Positions 21,850 through 29,717 are shown, numbered from the stretch's first letter. The stretch: DNA of 64,000 bases from Calditrichia bacterium (GCA_028284905.1 JANQQU010000062.1:62001-126000); one strand, 5' to 3'. Numbers and translations are program-made. Notes: a model not told the origin generated them from the letters alone.

Positions 21850-21921
21850 TCCGGAGTAGCTCAGCGGTAGAGCGGGTGGCTGTTAACCACTAGGTCGGGG
21901 GTTCAAATCCCTCCTCCGGAG
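21850..21921 (+). tRNA. tRNA-Asn (GTT anticodon)
   Basis: A full cloverleaf: acceptor TCCGGAG / CTCCGGA, D-arm GCTC-AGCGGTA-GAGC, anticodon stem GGTGG / CCACT around the loop CTGTTAA with anticodon GTT, and a T-arm with TTCAAAT. The discriminator base is G. The 3' CCA is not encoded and must be added after transcription. Confidence 0.95.
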
Positions 21922-21979
21922 CAAAACAAGAAAGCCATCAAACAATTTTAAATAAATGTTTGATGGCTTTCTTGTTTTG
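21922..21979. terminator. Perfect 23-bp hairpin directly after tRNA-Asn
   Basis: CAAAACAAGAAAGCCATCAAACA at 21922-21944 (given as positions; 23 bp) is fully complementary to 21957-21979, with a 12-nt AT loop. It starts at the base after the tRNA discriminator and ends 50 bp before the stop of the opposing PLD gene. T-rich and A-rich ends suit a terminator in both directions. The length and perfection exceed a normal tRNA terminator. Confidence 0.75.
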
Positions 21980-22029
21980 TTTAGGAAACACTCACGCAAC
22001 AAAAATCTCAAAAGATTTGCCCTGCCCCT

Positions 22030-24591
22030 TCAAGTTTGTTTTAATTTTTCCACTATTTGTCTTAAATTCGCCTTCTTACGCTTGACGATTTCTAAGTTGT
22101 ATAAATATCTATGTGACTTTACTTGAGTTTTTTTTCTACGACTATGAAGGAACAACTTCACATTCGTGTTCTCTTCAATAAAAGCTTTTTCCAGAACTTT
22201 TCCCCATCCCAGATTGGAACTCCAGACATAATCTCCGACGTTGTGCTCTTCGTGAAGCTGAAGTTGATGGATTTCTTCACCATGGCTTTCTAAGAACCCT
22301 TCTATTTCGTCGAGTGTTCGTGCTAAAACTGGCGCCTGCTGCAAGATTGCTTTTCGGGCATTAATGTCTAGGAAGCTGTTGATAAGCCGATTAAGCTTCC
22401 CTGTTTCTATACTAGAACGTAAATCCAAGTTGTAGAATATCTCTCTAACGGCAATGGCTTTGTCGATCATATTAAATGGGCTAGACCATTTAATATGATT
22501 TAAATGTGTTAACAGAACCACCCACAGGGTACCACTGCCGATTGTTGATTGAAACAGCATTGTCTTCCCTTTGTCAGCGAACTTTCGCCTAAGGAGCTTG
22601 ATAATACCTTGAGTGTCATCATCAAATTCAACCAAAAACAAAAGGTCGGAAAGTTTTATCATCCATTTTAAGCAGACTTCATCTTCTAACCAGTTATGCT
22701 TCTTCCCCAAAACTGATACCGCAATAGGGTAGCTTAATGCCTCTTTAAATTGATTGACACTACACTTTGACAAGAACTCCAATTTGGAAAATTGATCAAA
22801 GTAATCCTCCATTTTCTTTATCAGTCGATTAAGCATTTTGGGTTTTAATGACAAGCCGTCATTCAATGTTCTCAGATTATTAGTTCTTGAATTATCTGGC
22901 AAAATTTCAACAGAAAGAACGTCTGATTTTACATCCGAATCAGAATCCAGTTCTTGTTCAAGTGCCGAGCTTCGGTCCTGCACATTGAACAGTGCTTTTA
23001 TGACACCCTCTATAGAGAGAAAATCTTGTGTGGATGATGCGACAGAATGGGGTAATTCGTTCTTAGTAAATTCTCTTAGGGATTTAATCAAGTGATCAGG
23101 ATCCACCGATGAAATATTTTGAAGGTTTTTGTTTAATGATCTATGTTGAACAGAATAGATTGGATCTGCATATTCTTTTGCATTGTTAAAAATAGTCGTA
23201 CTAATTAAAATGAGATCATCTACTATTTGATTTAATTCGGAACTACTCTGAATATTCCTAAGTCCATCGAATACCATGAAGTTTTTTTGAATACGGGAGT
23301 TCTTTTCTAATTCATCAATGGAGTTCATCCACTGCCAATTGCTGAATTGAGGTCGCTCATTATCTACTTGCAATTTTACTCTAACTAAATTAACTCTTTC
23401 ATTTTGCCAATCATTAGGTAATATCCCCTCAAATATATCACTAAATTCAGCTGATCTTTCTAATGGGATTTCCGAATTACCGAGCGACATAACTAAATTG
23501 GAATTACTCGGGAGAACAGTTGAAGTTTTAACCTCTACCTTTCCTAAAGAATTGTATAAATCTACATTCTCAATATAAAATGGCCAACTAGCCTTTCTCT
23601 CGTTCTGAGAAACTGCCATTCCCCAACCATCTATCTCCGAAGCCATTTTAGTTGCCTTTGCAAATTTTGAAAATAAGATATCAAAATCTTTTGTCTCAGG
23701 TTTGTCATAAACCAAAGCAGCCTCGATATTTCCACCTTTTTCGGGTGGAACAAGCCAGGCCATTCTTGAACAGTTGGGAGACCCCATCACCGCGCCGTTC
23801 CCCTCTTTCCCAGAGAACCAATAGAGTTTGGCGTGTTGCAAGGGTGGATATTTCACAGGAACGACTAGGAGTTTTAGGGGTAAGTCGTTTAGCTTCTCTG
23901 GTTTTAGAGACGCATGCGAAGGATCAACGTAAATAACACAGTCACTTATTCCAAATTTATAGTAACACCATTCTACGAAAGCAGCGGTTTCATCAGTGAA
24001 ACCAGTTAAAATCTTTAAGGACTTAAATTTACGGTTTTTCCACCGTCGAGCTAATTGAATGGCCAGCGAACCTTTTTTTTCTGAGGATAAAAGCAGGGAT
24101 TGTTGGGAAGTTGTTGAAGCTGGAGCTGGTTGACTAGGCTTGATTGAGGGCAATACTTTCTTTACCAACGGATGATTGCAAAAAGAATTTACCCAACAAA
24201 CAATTTCGAGAACAAAATCATCTCTTGTGTGCATTATGCCTGATGAAGCAAGCTCATAATTAACCGCCCATCCAGAATAGGTTAAATTACCTGACCCTAT
24301 CCACACTGCCGCTCCTTTTTGTCCAGTTCGAAGAATAAGTTTTGGATGGAAGAGGCCATTTGTTTGCGCTGGAATTAATAAGTATTCCCGTCCAAGATGT
24401 TGCAATGCCTCTCTGGATCTTGCAACTGATTCAACAAGGCGGGTACGATCACCAACAACAACGACCTTCCGCGTGCCGCCAATCTTTAATGCCCGCCAAA
24501 CCACTCTTTCAAAAAATATTGGATCAAAAGAGTAAGTCAAAAAAATGGTGTTTTCATATCCTGGTTGGCTACAAAACTCTCGAGGGTTCAT
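22030..24591 (-). CDS. Phospholipase D-like (double HKD) protein, candidate nuclease of an accessory two-gene module
   Basis: An 853-aa cytoplasmic protein with two PLD half-sites: H82-P-K84 followed by GSGN at 99-102, and H253-A-K255 followed by GSPN at 270-273. PLD-fold enzymes join two such half-sites in one active site and cleave phosphodiesters; those with GS-x-N motifs are often nucleases in restriction or defence genes. The N-terminus (TIFLTYSFDPIFFERVVWRAL) is the entry strand-helix of the PLD fold. About 450 residues of helical sequence without a family I recognise follow, then near 790 a small beta domain (VGDYVWSSNLGWGKVLE) resembling the Tudor/SH3-like C-terminal domain of UvrD/PcrA helicases. 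The ATG lies 2 nt after the partner's TAG, and its AAGGAG sits inside the partner's last codons. Codon choice looks AT-richer than flanking genes. Function inferred. Confidence 0.8.
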   Translation of the reverse strand: MNPREFCSQPGYENTIFLTYSFDPIFFERVVWRALKIGGTRKVVVVGDRTRLVESVARSREALQHLGREYLLIPAQTNGLFHPKLILRTGQKGAAVWIGSGNLTYSGWAVNYELASSGIMHTRDDFVLEIVCWVNSFCNHPLVKKVLPSIKPSQPAPASTTSQQSLLLSSEKKGSLAIQLARRWKNRKFKSLKILTGFTDETAAFVEWCYYKFGISDCVIYVDPSHASLKPEKLNDLPLKLLVVPVKYPPLQHAKLYWFSGKEGNGAVMGSPNCSRMAWLVPPEKGGNIEAALVYDKPETKDFDILFSKFAKATKMASEIDGWGMAVSQNERKASWPFYIENVDLYNSLGKVEVKTSTVLPSNSNLVMSLGNSEIPLERSAEFSDIFEGILPNDWQNERVNLVRVKLQVDNERPQFSNWQWMNSIDELEKNSRIQKNFMVFDGLRNIQSSSELNQIVDDLILISTTIFNNAKEYADPIYSVQHRSLNKNLQNISSVDPDHLIKSLREFTKNELPHSVASSTQDFLSIEGVIKALFNVQDRSSALEQELDSDSDVKSDVLSVEILPDNSRTNNLRTLNDGLSLKPKMLNRLIKKMEDYFDQFSKLEFLSKCSVNQFKEALSYPIAVSVLGKKHNWLEDEVCLKWMIKLSDLLFLVEFDDDTQGIIKLLRRKFADKGKTMLFQSTIGSGTLWVVLLTHLNHIKWSSPFNMIDKAIAVREIFYNLDLRSSIETGKLNRLINSFLDINARKAILQQAPVLARTLDEIEGFLESHGEEIHQLQLHEEHNVGDYVWSSNLGWGKVLEKAFIEENTNVKLFLHSRRKKTQVKSHRYLYNLEIVKRKKANLRQIVEKLKQT

Positions 24592-24593
24592 CT

Positions 24594-26207
24594 CTACTCC
24601 TTGAAGCCATATCGGTTTAACACTCCATATGCGCCCTTGAGGATTGTTTCACCGTCAGTTGTTATACCATGTTCATTAATAAGTTTTAACTGTATCATCC
24701 ACCCCAGGGCTTGTTTTAGACGTGAAGCGCTTTGACCAGGTTGAAAGTCTTGTAGGTACTGCAGCATATTTCCATCCCGGTATAATAGAGAAACATTTTT
24801 TCGTGGATCAGTTGCCAAGCGGGACCATGCGATACGGATATGCTGTTCAACACTTCTCTGTAGCAATGAGATTGTTAACTCAGGTAAAAGAGGGTTTTTA
24901 TTACGCCATTCTTCAATTGCAGGTTTAATCACTTCAGATATTCCCAGACGCGCTAGACCTTTGTACTGAATCATGCTCGACCATTGAGAAAGAGAGACTT
25001 TTTCAATAATCACACGGTGCTCTACAACTAACCAAACAACCGGAAGTAATGCGATTGCATCGAAAGAATTCGACATTATATTTTCAGACAACTTCACCCC
25101 CAAAAAATCATTATCCCAACGGCAAAGTCCCTCTCTTTCTAAAGGAGTATTAGTTATATTTGTTAAGCGCTTCTCTAGCTCATTGAAACGCAAGTCAGCC
25201 CAGCTTTCATCGTTCCGAATCAAGCCGATTTTCTTTAAAGGTGCTGAAATGTCTTCTTCGTCCCTCAATATTGCAGCGAATAGAGCTCCTTCTTCTATCG
25301 GGTGGTTTTGAGAAAGGCTTTCAAGATAATCTAAAACAACCTTCATCGCAGCCTCATGAGTAATGGATAAAAGATCACGTATTGTATAAATTAACCATCC
25401 ATTTAAAATTGGATTCAGTAATGGGTTTATATCGGGTTTGGGGTGAGTCGCCAAAAGAAACAAGTCTTTTTCTGAGGGGATGTTCCTGTTGTTAAGAGCC
25501 AATTCCAATATGAGTGCATAAGTTGCGATTCGGTTTAATTCCCACCTCTTCTCCAGCATGAGCAAATCTTCTGGAATGACAGCCTTAATGAGCAATTCCC
25601 GTTCTGTGTCTGGAATGCGATCAATTTTTAGTAAGTTACCAAATTCGGCGAGACTTTCACGGCTAATTGAACTGATTTTGGGCTTCTGGCGTAATTCCGT
25701 AAAGAATTGGCAATCTCCAACTAACTCTTTTATGCAATTAACAAGAGGAAGCCCTCTTTCTTCAGTAATTGTAGGAACCAGGTTCCCGTTTGAAACTGTA
25801 ATTCCCATCTGGTCAGAAGGATTTGTATAGACAGAATAAGCAATAGCTGATTTGACTAATTTCTCTAAGGGCAGCAACTCTTGTGGAGAATCTATCAGTT
25901 CCTCGGCCCGAGTACTACCAATCATTCCCATGGTTGATGAATCAACTAAAAGGTTGCCAATAACTAGCGCAGCCTCGATTCGTGCTGCAAAATTCTTTAG
26001 TTCAGAAAGTCGGTCAGGAAGTTGTTGTTGAGCATATTCATGAATTATCCAGGACCGAATGGAGAGATAGCGAATTGTGGGGGATATTGTGGTAATACCA
26101 TTTAACAAAATATTGCCAATGTACTGAACTGGTAGGCGGAGTCCTAATAGATCAAGCCCATCGGTTTGTTTGTTTTCCATAGCTGCCCATTGAGGAGTTG
26201 ATATCAT
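24594..26207 (-). CDS. Uncharacterised 537-aa partner of the PLD-like protein
   Basis: I do not recognise a named family. The protein has no signal peptide or clear membrane segment and looks mostly alpha-helical. A striking N-terminal block, DGLDLLGLRLPVQYIGN then GITTISPTIRYLSIRSWIIH (about residues 16-54), looks like a conserved core. The last ~70 residues (RLKQALGWMIQLKLINEHG, then GAYGVLNRYGF) could form a winged helix. Start ATG 26207 has AAAGGAAA 9 nt upstream. It is the first gene of the module and its 3' end carries the RBS of the PLD gene, so the two proteins are made together and probably act together, for example as sensor/specificity subunit and nuclease (inference). Confidence 0.65.
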   Translation of the reverse strand: MISTPQWAAMENKQTDGLDLLGLRLPVQYIGNILLNGITTISPTIRYLSIRSWIIHEYAQQQLPDRLSELKNFAARIEAALVIGNLLVDSSTMGMIGSTRAEELIDSPQELLPLEKLVKSAIAYSVYTNPSDQMGITVSNGNLVPTITEERGLPLVNCIKELVGDCQFFTELRQKPKISSISRESLAEFGNLLKIDRIPDTERELLIKAVIPEDLLMLEKRWELNRIATYALILELALNNRNIPSEKDLFLLATHPKPDINPLLNPILNGWLIYTIRDLLSITHEAAMKVVLDYLESLSQNHPIEEGALFAAILRDEEDISAPLKKIGLIRNDESWADLRFNELEKRLTNITNTPLEREGLCRWDNDFLGVKLSENIMSNSFDAIALLPVVWLVVEHRVIIEKVSLSQWSSMIQYKGLARLGISEVIKPAIEEWRNKNPLLPELTISLLQRSVEQHIRIAWSRLATDPRKNVSLLYRDGNMLQYLQDFQPGQSASRLKQALGWMIQLKLINEHGITTDGETILKGAYGVLNRYGFKE

Positions 26208-26431: not shown

Positions 26432-26472
26432 AACAACAAAGGCCTCGCAATCTTTGCGAGGCCTTTGTTGTT
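26432..26472. terminator. Perfect 19-bp hairpin between the PLD module and the T9SS-cargo gene
   Basis: AACAACAAAGGCCTCGCAA (26432-26450) is perfectly complementary to 26454-26472, with a 3-nt loop TCT. It lies 24 bp after the stop of the minus-strand gene ending at 26496, where it can serve as terminator, and upstream of the PLD module's regulatory region. Confidence 0.8.
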
Positions 26473-26495: not shown

Positions 26496-27020
26496 TCATT
26501 TCACTAGGAGCATCTTACGGGTTTCAACAAACTTATCCGCCTGGATGCGATAGAAATACAAACCGGTCGGCAAGCCGCGGGCTTCAAATTTGATTTCATA
26601 CTGCCCGGCTTGCATTTGTTCATTCACCAGGGTAGCCACCATTCGCCCGAGCACGTCGTAGATCCGCAGTTGAACCTTCACCGCTTTCGGTAATGCAAAT
26701 ACAATGGTTGTGCTGGGATTAAAAGGGTTGGGATAATTCTGCCGTAGTTCAAAATCTTCTGGGATGATAAAAGTGTCATCCAGGCCAGTCAGTAGGATTT
26801 CAGAGATTTGATACCAGAACCCACCACCCATTACAATTGAAGAATCGCCGGGACTACCATTAAAAGCCTGTCCGAAAGTGCCACGCATGGATTTAACAGA
26901 ATCGCCGGTCTGCACTGCTGCATTCGCAAAAACACTGTTGCTGATTTTCATCTGGGCGGAGATAGGAATACTAATCAGGCAGATAAAGCACAACATCCAA
27001 AATGTTCGTATGTAAGTCAT
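26496..27020 (-). CDS. Secreted protein with T9SS type-A sorting domain
   Basis: A 174-aa exported protein. A signal peptide (LCFICLISIPISAQ) is followed by ~60 residues with GTFGQAFNG and GGGFWYQ, a short pattern frequent in FCB-group T9SS cargo, and then by the C-terminal sorting domain starting FELRQNYPNPFNPSTTI and ending GLYFYRIQADKFVETRKMLLVK. That domain targets the protein through the type IX secretion pore and anchors it to the surface. GGAAGGA precedes the ATG. The gene follows the S74-domain gene after 81 bp on the same strand and is probably co-expressed with it. The protein is nearly all sorting domain, so its own function is obscure. Confidence 0.85.
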   Translation of the reverse strand: MTYIRTFWMLCFICLISIPISAQMKISNSVFANAAVQTGDSVKSMRGTFGQAFNGSPGDSSIVMGGGFWYQISEILLTGLDDTFIIPEDFELRQNYPNPFNPSTTIVFALPKAVKVQLRIYDVLGRMVATLVNEQMQAGQYEIKFEARGLPTGLYFYRIQADKFVETRKMLLVK

Positions 27021-27101: not shown

Positions 27102-29717
27102 CTACTTGTTTTCCACCTGCTGTAGCCGTTCCTCAAGCGTTTTAACCTTCGTTTCCAATTCCTGTATGGCCTTGATCAATACCGGCACCAATGATGAATA
27201 ATAAATGCCCAGGTTCTCTACCTCGTAGCGGGTGGCCTGGGACTCATCTTCCTCGGAAACTTTGTAGTCATGCGTATTGACAACCTCAGGTAGCACCTGC
27301 AGAACTTCCTGGGCAATCAGTCCCAGTTTGGTATCCTGATCGAAGCCTTCACGCCAGCGAAAACTCACCGGACGAAGCTGTTTAATAGCTTCTAGGCCAT
27401 AGCCTAAATTCTCAATATTACTCTTTAATCGTTCATCGGAGGTGTTGATGGTGCCGTTGGTGGCGTAAATATCATCATAGCGAAAAGTGGCGGTGCCGAT
27501 GTCATAAAGATTATTAGAATCAGGCCGTATATCACCACGTCCCGCAATTTCGTTGGTGCCCCCGTCTTCAAAATATTCCACGCTTTGAAAGCGAACGCGT
27601 CCGTTGACGTGCAGACGGTCTAGAGGCACTAGGGTGCCAATGCCAACATTCCCATTCTTTAGCACCGTCACTGCATTGGCGCGGGCGGTGTTGCTGGTGC
27701 CAATACCGATTTCAAAAATTGGATCATTGATAAGCCAGCCAGTGGCACTGCCTCCCCCAAAATTATAACGCCCCACCGCCATCGAAGCGTAGGATTGTGC
27801 GCGCACGTTAGTCCCAAGCGCCACAGAGAAAATCCCCTGAGCCTCGGCGACAAAACCGGCGGCGAATGAATAGTTTTGTTCGGCCTCGCTACTGTATCCC
27901 AGAGCGGTTGATCCTAAAGCCAGGGCATCGGTATTGTAGCCCATTGCTGTAGAATATTGTCCGTAGGCATTCGTGAAATACCCCGAAGCGAAGGCGTAGA
28001 AGTTGCTGGCTTCGGTAGCTCGGCCCATTGCGGTGGCGCCGTAACCCTGGGCACGAGTGTTATAGCCCGAAGCAAAGGAATAGAGACCAATACTGTCGGA
28101 ATTCCAATAGGTGCTGCTTGCGCCGGTAGAAAGCGAGCCGACTCTGAAAGCATGCTTATGGGGGAGAAACATAAGCTTGTCGCCGGCGCCGAGGGTGTCG
28201 GCGCCGAAGAGCACTCTCCTTGTATCACCGACATGAAAGGCGACCTTAGGAGAGATGCCCACACCAATGCCCACCTGGCCATCGCCGGTAATCGTCATAA
28301 CATCGCCACTGGTACCATTCCAAAAATTGAGGCGATCGTTTTGATTGTTGCTGGCAATATAAGCAGCAATTGACCAGTAATTTCCGGTGTTATTGTTTTG
28401 CATGCGCAACCGGGCATAATCATTGCCGTTTTCATGCAATAGGATTTGCGGATCACTCAGATTGCCGTTGGAAAACACTTCCAGGCTGCCATCGGGGCTA
28501 CTGGTGCCGATGCCAACATCGCCGCTATTGTAATAGACATTTGTACCACTGGTAAACCAGGGACTAAATCCGGCATTGTCTGTGGCAGGCGCCCAGGTGC
28601 TACCATTCCACTTCAGCACTTGGTCGGTCGTTGGTGTTGTTGTGGCAACACTATTCCCCTGAATAGCAGTAACGACTGGGTCCGGATAGTTACCATCCAA
28701 ATCACCCCCGGCGGGACCATCCGGTGGTAGGGTAACCCCCGGCGCAATTTTGTTTTGGGTGACCGCCTCATCGGATATATGGTTAGTGACAATTGCTGAG
28801 TCGGCAATTTTCGTGCTAACTACGGCGCTGTCCGCCAACTGCAATGAATCGATGCCGCCGGGCGTAATATCAATATCGACTGTCGGGCCGTTGGGATTGG
28901 CAATTGTCAACGTATTATCATTGTTTTGAATGCCCTGCACGCCAACACCTCCGCCGGCACCGGCATTAATGATCACGCTATCACCATTGGTGGATATAGT
29001 TGCGCCACCGGCTGCCGTTAATATAACCTCATCGCGAAGGCCATTGACGCTGGTAACCACGGTATTGTCGGCAATCTTTTCAGCGGATATACCACCGTCC
29101 GCCACTGAAATAGTGACATCGCCGGTCTCCCCGCCGCCGGCCAGTCCATCTGCCGCCAGCACGCCGGTAATGTCTCCGGTGCCGACACCAACTGCTGCGA
29201 TAGTCAGTGCATTGCCACTTTCGGTAATCGCAATATTGGCACCGGCGATCAGTTCTACCGCTTCGGTTTTGCCATTAATGCTGCGTACTACCGTGCTATT
29301 GGAAATCTTGGCCGAGGTAATTGCGCTGTCTATAACTGTCCGGGCGTTTAAGCTGTATGCCCCAGCCGTCAGCTCGATGCGCGGTGAAAGTTCCGGATCA
29401 TTGCCGACTGTAATGCCCAGCCAGTAGGGCTGAGCAAAGTCCGCCGTCATGGGGATGACGCTTCCGAGAACGACATTGACAATACCGCTCTCCAATAGAA
29501 CCGATTGGCTTTCCTGCCAAACCACGTTCCCGTTGTCTTCGGCGTCATAGAGCGTAAAAATCATGTTGTAGTTGCCGTCGGCTACTGGAGTGCCATCATT
29601 ATTGGTTAGTAAACCCTGGTAACTCATTTTTTGCGGCATCTGAGCAATTAGAACGAGCGGTGAGGCAATCAATAAAAGTGCCCAGAAAATTATTAAGCTT
29701 GATAGCCGATGTCCCAT
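27102..29717 (-). CDS. Secreted fibre-like protein with YadA-like head repeats and S74 (endosialidase chaperone) domain
   Basis: An 871-aa exported protein. Signal peptide to about residue 25 (LIASPLVLIAQ). The N-terminal part (QGLLTNNDGTPVADGNYNMI) is the beta domain common in FCB surface fibres. Residues ~540-670 carry YadA/Hia-like head repeats of about 14 residues (A-x-G-x-x-T-x-A-x-G), which form trimeric left-handed rolls. At the C-terminus is an S74 intramolecular chaperone: SDERLKSNI with Ser760 and Lys765 at the spacing of the known Ser-Lys cleavage dyad, QEVLQVLPEV, and a final coiled coil (TKVKTLEERLQQVE). Cleavage before Ser760 would release ~112 residues after trimer assembly. 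Phage tail spikes use the same domain, but no phage genes are near. Confidence 0.85.
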   Translation of the reverse strand: MGHRLSSLIIFWALLLIASPLVLIAQMPQKMSYQGLLTNNDGTPVADGNYNMIFTLYDAEDNGNVVWQESQSVLLESGIVNVVLGSVIPMTADFAQPYWLGITVGNDPELSPRIELTAGAYSLNARTVIDSAITSAKISNSTVVRSINGKTEAVELIAGANIAITESGNALTIAAVGVGTGDITGVLAADGLAGGGETGDVTISVADGGISAEKIADNTVVTSVNGLRDEVILTAAGGATISTNGDSVIINAGAGGGVGVQGIQNNDNTLTIANPNGPTVDIDITPGGIDSLQLADSAVVSTKIADSAIVTNHISDEAVTQNKIAPGVTLPPDGPAGGDLDGNYPDPVVTAIQGNSVATTTPTTDQVLKWNGSTWAPATDNAGFSPWFTSGTNVYYNSGDVGIGTSSPDGSLEVFSNGNLSDPQILLHENGNDYARLRMQNNNTGNYWSIAAYIASNNQNDRLNFWNGTSGDVMTITGDGQVGIGVGISPKVAFHVGDTRRVLFGADTLGAGDKLMFLPHKHAFRVGSLSTGASSTYWNSDSIGLYSFASGYNTRAQGYGATAMGRATEASNFYAFASGYFTNAYGQYSTAMGYNTDALALGSTALGYSSEAEQNYSFAAGFVAEAQGIFSVALGTNVRAQSYASMAVGRYNFGGGSATGWLINDPIFEIGIGTSNTARANAVTVLKNGNVGIGTLVPLDRLHVNGRVRFQSVEYFEDGGTNEIAGRGDIRPDSNNLYDIGTATFRYDDIYATNGTINTSDERLKSNIENLGYGLEAIKQLRPVSFRWREGFDQDTKLGLIAQEVLQVLPEVVNTHDYKVSEEDESQATRYEVENLGIYYSSLVPVLIKAIQELETKVKTLEERLQQVENK

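Follow-up and report, generated by a model that had tools for sequence, protein, structure and literature searches.

The gene pair and its boundaries

The window analysed here, a stretch of DNA of 64,000 nt, contains two adjacent genes on the minus strand, a partner gene encoding 537 aa (24594-26207), which is transcribed first, and a gene encoding a PLD-superfamily protein of 853 aa (22030-24591), which is second in transcription; both were defined by ORF calling. The junction sequence (...CTTCAAGGAGTAGAGATGAAC) comprises the stop codon TAG, a 2-nt gap and ATG, and the AAGGAG of the PLD gene sits within the final codons of the partner gene. Strand, lengths and junction are as the first-pass annotation of this DNA had described them. 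Its statement that the pair is AT-richer than the flanking genes was also borne out, as the GC contents of the PLD gene and the partner gene are 38.6% and 40.8%, respectively, compared with 46.9 +/- 2.3% (minimum 41.5%) for 31 other genes measured in the window, and both lie below every one of the latter.

A tRNA-Asn(GTT) gene was called at 21850-21922 on the plus strand. Between it and the 3' end of the pair there is an inverted repeat with 33-nt arms at 21915-21986 (arms 21915-21947 and 21954-21986), which is probably a bidirectional terminator after tRNA-Asn. This hairpin had been placed 50 bp from the start of the pair; it actually lies about 43 nt past its 3' end. Upstream of the pair, a repeat search revealed a perfect hairpin with 19-nt arms at 26432-26472, which probably terminates transcription of the gene at 26496-27020. 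Since the two hairpins flank the pair, we consider it to be bounded as one transcription unit. The gene at 26496-27020 encodes a small T9SS-like sorted protein and adjoins a gene (27102-29717) for a secreted protein of 871 aa that has YadA head repeats and ends in a Peptidase_S74 chaperone domain.

The neighbours of the pair in the window are ordinary, namely serC, genes for cobalamin adenosyltransferase-like, CBM48-like and secreted proteins, and that for the S74/YadA-like protein (several assigned by eye), and no defence genes were found beside this copy. One relative from the same family (G031) is syntenic for serC-cobA-CBM48-tRNA-Asn and then carries dehydrogenase and aldolase genes; in another relative of the family (G034) tRNA-Asn is missing. 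Thus, the pair occupies a variable position. An integrated element with an att site at tRNA-Asn was considered and rejected, because the 3' end of the tRNA is not repeated and no integrase lies beside the pair.

Architecture of the PLD protein and its partner

The PLD protein gave a PLDc_2 match above the cut-off in Pfam. As the first-pass annotation had reported, it carries two complete HxK...GS-x-N half-sites, H82xK84...GS-x-N102...E113 and H253xK255...GS-x-N273...E290, and the H, K, N and E of both are invariant in all 23 family members aligned. The predicted catalytic residues His82 in the first HxK and His253 in the second, identified from the alignment, are encoded by the minus-strand codons at 24346-24348 and 23833-23835, respectively (coordinates computed from the ORF). 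Among the 23 members, the residue five positions after HxK is never Asp at the first site (hydrophobic or T) and is unconserved at the second (E/D/S/Q/L), and the protein does not fall into the classical HKD subtype of the PLD superfamily, whose HxKxxxxD pattern includes this Asp. The earlier label "double-HKD" is therefore right as to the two HxK half-sites but not as to the classical Asp, which is absent as in TDP1-type enzymes; judged from these residues, an HxK...N, TDP1-type double site is the better label.

The AlphaFold2 model of the PLD protein (mean pLDDT 70.6) comprises the HxK...GSxN...E module at about 12-310, a beta-sandwich at 340-424, a low-confidence linker at 478-580, a helical domain at 584-778 and, at about 788-825, a small beta domain at the C-terminus. 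The C-terminus had been taken for a UvrD-like Tudor type. The small beta domain is indeed modelled there, with a G-W motif kept in the window's own clade, but no UvrD or Tudor match was obtained in Pfam at E<=1. The best Foldseek match of the model was TDP1 (E 1e-5), followed by polyphosphate kinase and BfiI, and in Pfam Tyr-DNA_phospho matches two family members and RE_NgoFVII (its N-terminal domain) one. At the level of the model, the resemblance to TDP1 and polyphosphate kinase would also fit enzymes other than endonucleases.

For the partner protein, the Pfam search gave no family, DUF6361 included. Its AlphaFold2 model is all-helical (pLDDT 72), and a fold search with this model returned no meaningful match and no relative in the PDB. 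The C-terminus combines a helix-strands-helix arrangement with the pattern 'RL..A..FL.DL.L....GLT..G', from which we suggest that it could be a winged helix. We propose that the partner is a sensor/specificity or regulatory subunit, which may sense or bind DNA.

Co-occurrence, distribution and neighbourhood

At all 25 loci that could be tested, that of the window included, the PLD gene is immediately preceded by the partner gene. These loci came from a plasmid set searched by tblastn, a genome scan, viral-contig copies, a Burkholderiales sample and Bacteroidota; two entries (L011 and L016) represent a single prophage and one (L019) is cut off. The genes overlap by 4 nt in most loci and by 8-13 nt in a few, and are separated by the 2-nt gap in the window. 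The tblastn search detected the pair on plasmids of Cupriavidus, Roseomonas, Sphingopyxis, Polaromonas, Roseovarius, Myroides and Undibacterium. The genome scan, seeded with the PLD protein alone, yielded 12 loci, and the partner was adjacent upstream in all 11 that had upstream sequence; the seed alignment of the closer set was the productive one, and the version including a divergent Roseomonas row matched nothing. When 300 Burkholderiales genomes were sampled, the profiles of the partner and of the PLD protein matched an identical set of five genomes, each time at a shared position, with one extra, unrelated PLD match that was weak and 47 residues long; since two of the five (G044 and G045) were known beforehand, three are independent. 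The pairwise distances of the partner and the PLD protein correlate with a Mantel r of 0.993. The pairing is thus kept in other genomes, as expected from the proposal that the two genes form one system.

The hosts of the pair include Pseudomonadota and Bacteroidota, and copies lie on plasmids and in a prophage. In the window's phylum it was present in one of 40 genomes and absent from the other 39, and in the other groups sampled it was present in about 1-2% of the genomes. A housekeeping pair was rejected on this distribution. The two outcomes named in advance as refuting the proposal, genes that do not co-occur in other genomes and a match to a known metabolic or repair family with housekeeping distribution, did not arise. 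On the sequence evidence of patchiness in the phylum, low GC and location on plasmids and in a prophage, the pair is horizontally spread. A phage-borne anti-defence gene was also considered and rejected, with 0 matches in 50,697 phage records; searches of NCBIfam and PHROGs gave no matches.

A neighbourhood survey for defence islands, suggested by the first-pass annotation, showed that defence-type genes, namely restriction, McrBC, Qat, Schlafen, AbiEii or YhcG genes, lie near the pair at no fewer than 12 of the 24 loci outside the window; some of the contigs are too short for a decision. A Qat system, AbiEii, Schlafen AlbA and YhcG are among the neighbours. One locus has McrBC, two C5 methylases and a Vsr-like nuclease (AAA and methylases by Pfam, McrC and Vsr by eye), and a type III-like Mod/Res pair lies near one copy (by eye). 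Three copies are within type I R-M operons: in Myroides the pair lies between hsdS and hsdR (L007:6343-10460), at L012:8397-12550 it directly follows HsdM-HsdS, and at L023:8382-12610 it follows HsdR-YhcG-HsdS-like genes (partly by eye). Two further copies (L006 and L042) adjoin such an operon. The placement inside type I R-M operons may reflect a functional link, and these five loci would fit a pair that serves as accessory subunits of type I R-M systems; most copies, that of the window included, are nevertheless without a type I R-M gene nearby, and we regard this explanation as very improbable.

Other surroundings were also observed. In Janthinobacterium (L014:1-17016), Tn7-like TniQ/TnsD genes stand on one side of the pair, and on its other side a DUF262-like gene precedes a glmS-like gene (partly by eye); in this setting the pair resembles cargo of Tn7 at glmS. 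In the Corticibacter populi prophage (L016:3954-15506, the same as L011) the pair is accompanied by a methylase-like gene of 867 aa (by eye), phage lysis-type genes and a XerD-like recombinase. Upstream of a Bacteroidota pair (L063:106-4896) there is an ORF of about 1597 aa whose start resembles DUF4011-type helicases (by eye).

TDP1 as the best fold match would also suit a DNA-repair or end-processing module that removes proteins from DNA ends in the manner of TDP1 and has no part in defence. The absence of the HKD aspartate, as in TDP1, and the Tyr-DNA_phospho matches of two members agree with this. However, the very patchy occurrence of the pair, on plasmids, in a prophage, in R-M operons and in defence islands, is not that of a housekeeping function, and a repair role appears improbable. 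From the genomic context we infer an anti-phage function.

Relation to Azaca and other known systems

Azaca consists of ZacA (DUF6361), ZacB (PLD) and ZacC (helicase), as two papers that cite Millman et al. 2022 for it list the system (PMC10952713, PMC12926258). For comparison, we recovered true Azaca loci from Cronobacter, Halomarina, Bradyrhizobium and Shinella. The PADLOC ZacB profile matched all 21 pair PLD proteins searched, and the ZacA profile matched 6 of 20 partners, the window partner with E 0.0024. By hhalign, the PLD family aligned with ZacB at E 3.5e-18 over about 275 columns and the partner family, whose length differs from that of ZacA, with ZacA at E 1.5e-6 over about 110 columns; the crossed controls gave 0.67 and 0.69. 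SauUSI is the sole sequence match of solved structure for the pair PLD family, and likewise for ZacB. The earlier statement that neither protein matches a system that can be named did not stand, as the two are remote homologues of ZacB and ZacA and lie in the same order. On the Bradyrhizobium (L048:916-13140) and Shinella (L049:836-13144) plasmids, co-oriented genes for a PD-(D/E)XK nuclease and a UvrD-like helicase directly precede Azaca.

The pair shares with Azaca a ZacA-like gene followed by a ZacB-like gene, in the order of the recovered loci, as well as the gene coupling, the double HxK...GSxN...E module and the plasmid and defence context. In contrast, it is without the ZacC helicase, its partners are about 540 aa long versus about 400 aa and its PLD proteins about 850 aa versus about 610 aa. 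The ZacB match is confined to the first ~310 of 853 PLD residues and the ZacA match to ~110 N-terminal residues of the 537 of the partner, and the extra ~130 aa (partner) and ~240 aa (PLD protein) go with C-terminal halves that are unmatched. A ZacC profile built from the recovered Azaca loci, which scores above 1600 bits at those loci, detected no ZacC at any of the 25 pair loci; the window genome has a generic 19-bit helicase match only, on another contig. In a tree of the nuclease half, Azaca ZacB and 23 pair PLD proteins formed two separate clades with 100/100 support.

The matches of both proteins to ZacA and ZacB in the same order could be read as an ordinary Azaca whose ZacC was lost or is encoded elsewhere, and a Bacteroidota MAG (G048) does hold both the pair (L020) and a true Azaca (L045), on separate contigs. 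This reading was already weakened by the tree; with the differences in length, the unmatched C-terminal halves and the ZacC result it becomes quite doubtful. We concluded from the separate clades and the absence of ZacC at pair loci that the pair is a separate lineage and not a decayed Azaca, and since ZacC was not found it is not classed as Azaca. In our judgement, the pair is likely to be a defence-type cassette of two genes that spread by horizontal transfer and is related to Azaca but has no helicase. This agrees with the self-contained module of a predicted nuclease and a partner proposed from the first reading, as the two genes are strictly co-occurring, mobile and next to other defence genes.

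The products of the cassette are most likely a DNA nuclease and its sensor or specificity subunit. The partner and the PLD protein would form a complex in which the partner senses or binds nucleic acid that invades the cell and keeps the nuclease in check until it is triggered. The PLD protein would be the effector, with DNA as the presumed substrate. Its two HxK...GSxN...E half-sites would come together, as in TDP1 and BfiI, to form a single active site that needs no metal and breaks a DNA phosphodiester bond via a covalent phosphohistidine, and its beta-sandwich, helical and C-terminal beta domains may hold the partner and DNA. Since there is no helicase, the pair would act, without translocation of its own, on DNA that it encounters or that is presented by another system, for example a neighbouring type I R-M enzyme.

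It is conceivable, though not likely, that the cassette works by abortive infection; the partner would then inhibit, in the manner of an antitoxin, a PLD protein that acts as a toxic nuclease or RNase once freed on infection. The close coupling of the two genes, with that of the partner in first place, is also seen in many toxin-antitoxin pairs, and it and the AbiEii and Schlafen genes near some copies are consistent with this idea, whereas both proteins are large and multi-domain and have their counterparts in Azaca and not in toxin-antitoxin systems. A somewhat more speculative idea is that of an undescribed two-component defence system, a motor-free TDP1-type nuclease with its own trigger and chemistry, which perhaps attacks protein-capped or otherwise unusual ends of phage or plasmid DNA once the ZacA-like partner has recognised them; in that case Azaca would be the derived form, with a helicase gained. 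To our knowledge, no mechanism has been established for Azaca. A natural version consisting of a ZacA-like and a ZacB-like protein across phyla would suggest that the core function resides in these two and that the helicase can be dispensed with, and the division of labour between sensor, nuclease and motor becomes directly testable with two proteins.

Comparison with other systems gave partial likenesses. Of the two-gene system models in the PADLOC library searched, none is matched by the pair family. The PDC-M27B profile of PADLOC matches 19 of 21 PLD proteins, but in the window protein the match is an active-site stretch of about 40 residues, and 0 partners match any PDC-M27 model. The BREX and YprA papers do not describe the pair, and in the openly readable literature no report was found of DUF6361 in phage work, of a two-gene PLD nuclease system or of TDP1 in an anti-phage context. 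DISARM shares the PLD domain, and 11 of 21 pair PLD proteins gave weak matches to the DrmC profile. However, DrmC is a small PLD protein alongside the DrmA helicase, DrmB (DUF1998) and a methylase, and none of these three lies beside the pair in the window or consistently at the other loci. BfiI, NgoAVII-CglI and SauUSI have the PLD nuclease fold in common with the pair, but theirs has one HxK per chain and forms dimers, with B3 or SRA target domains. SauUSI and NgoAVII additionally carry an SF2 helicase (PMC7913695). The closest likeness in fold is to TDP1, which has the same two-domain PLD fold and two HxK...N half-sites without the Asp, whereas the homology in sequence is limited to the weak Pfam matches in two members. 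TDP1 is the tyrosyl-DNA phosphodiesterase, a eukaryotic repair enzyme with different extra domains.
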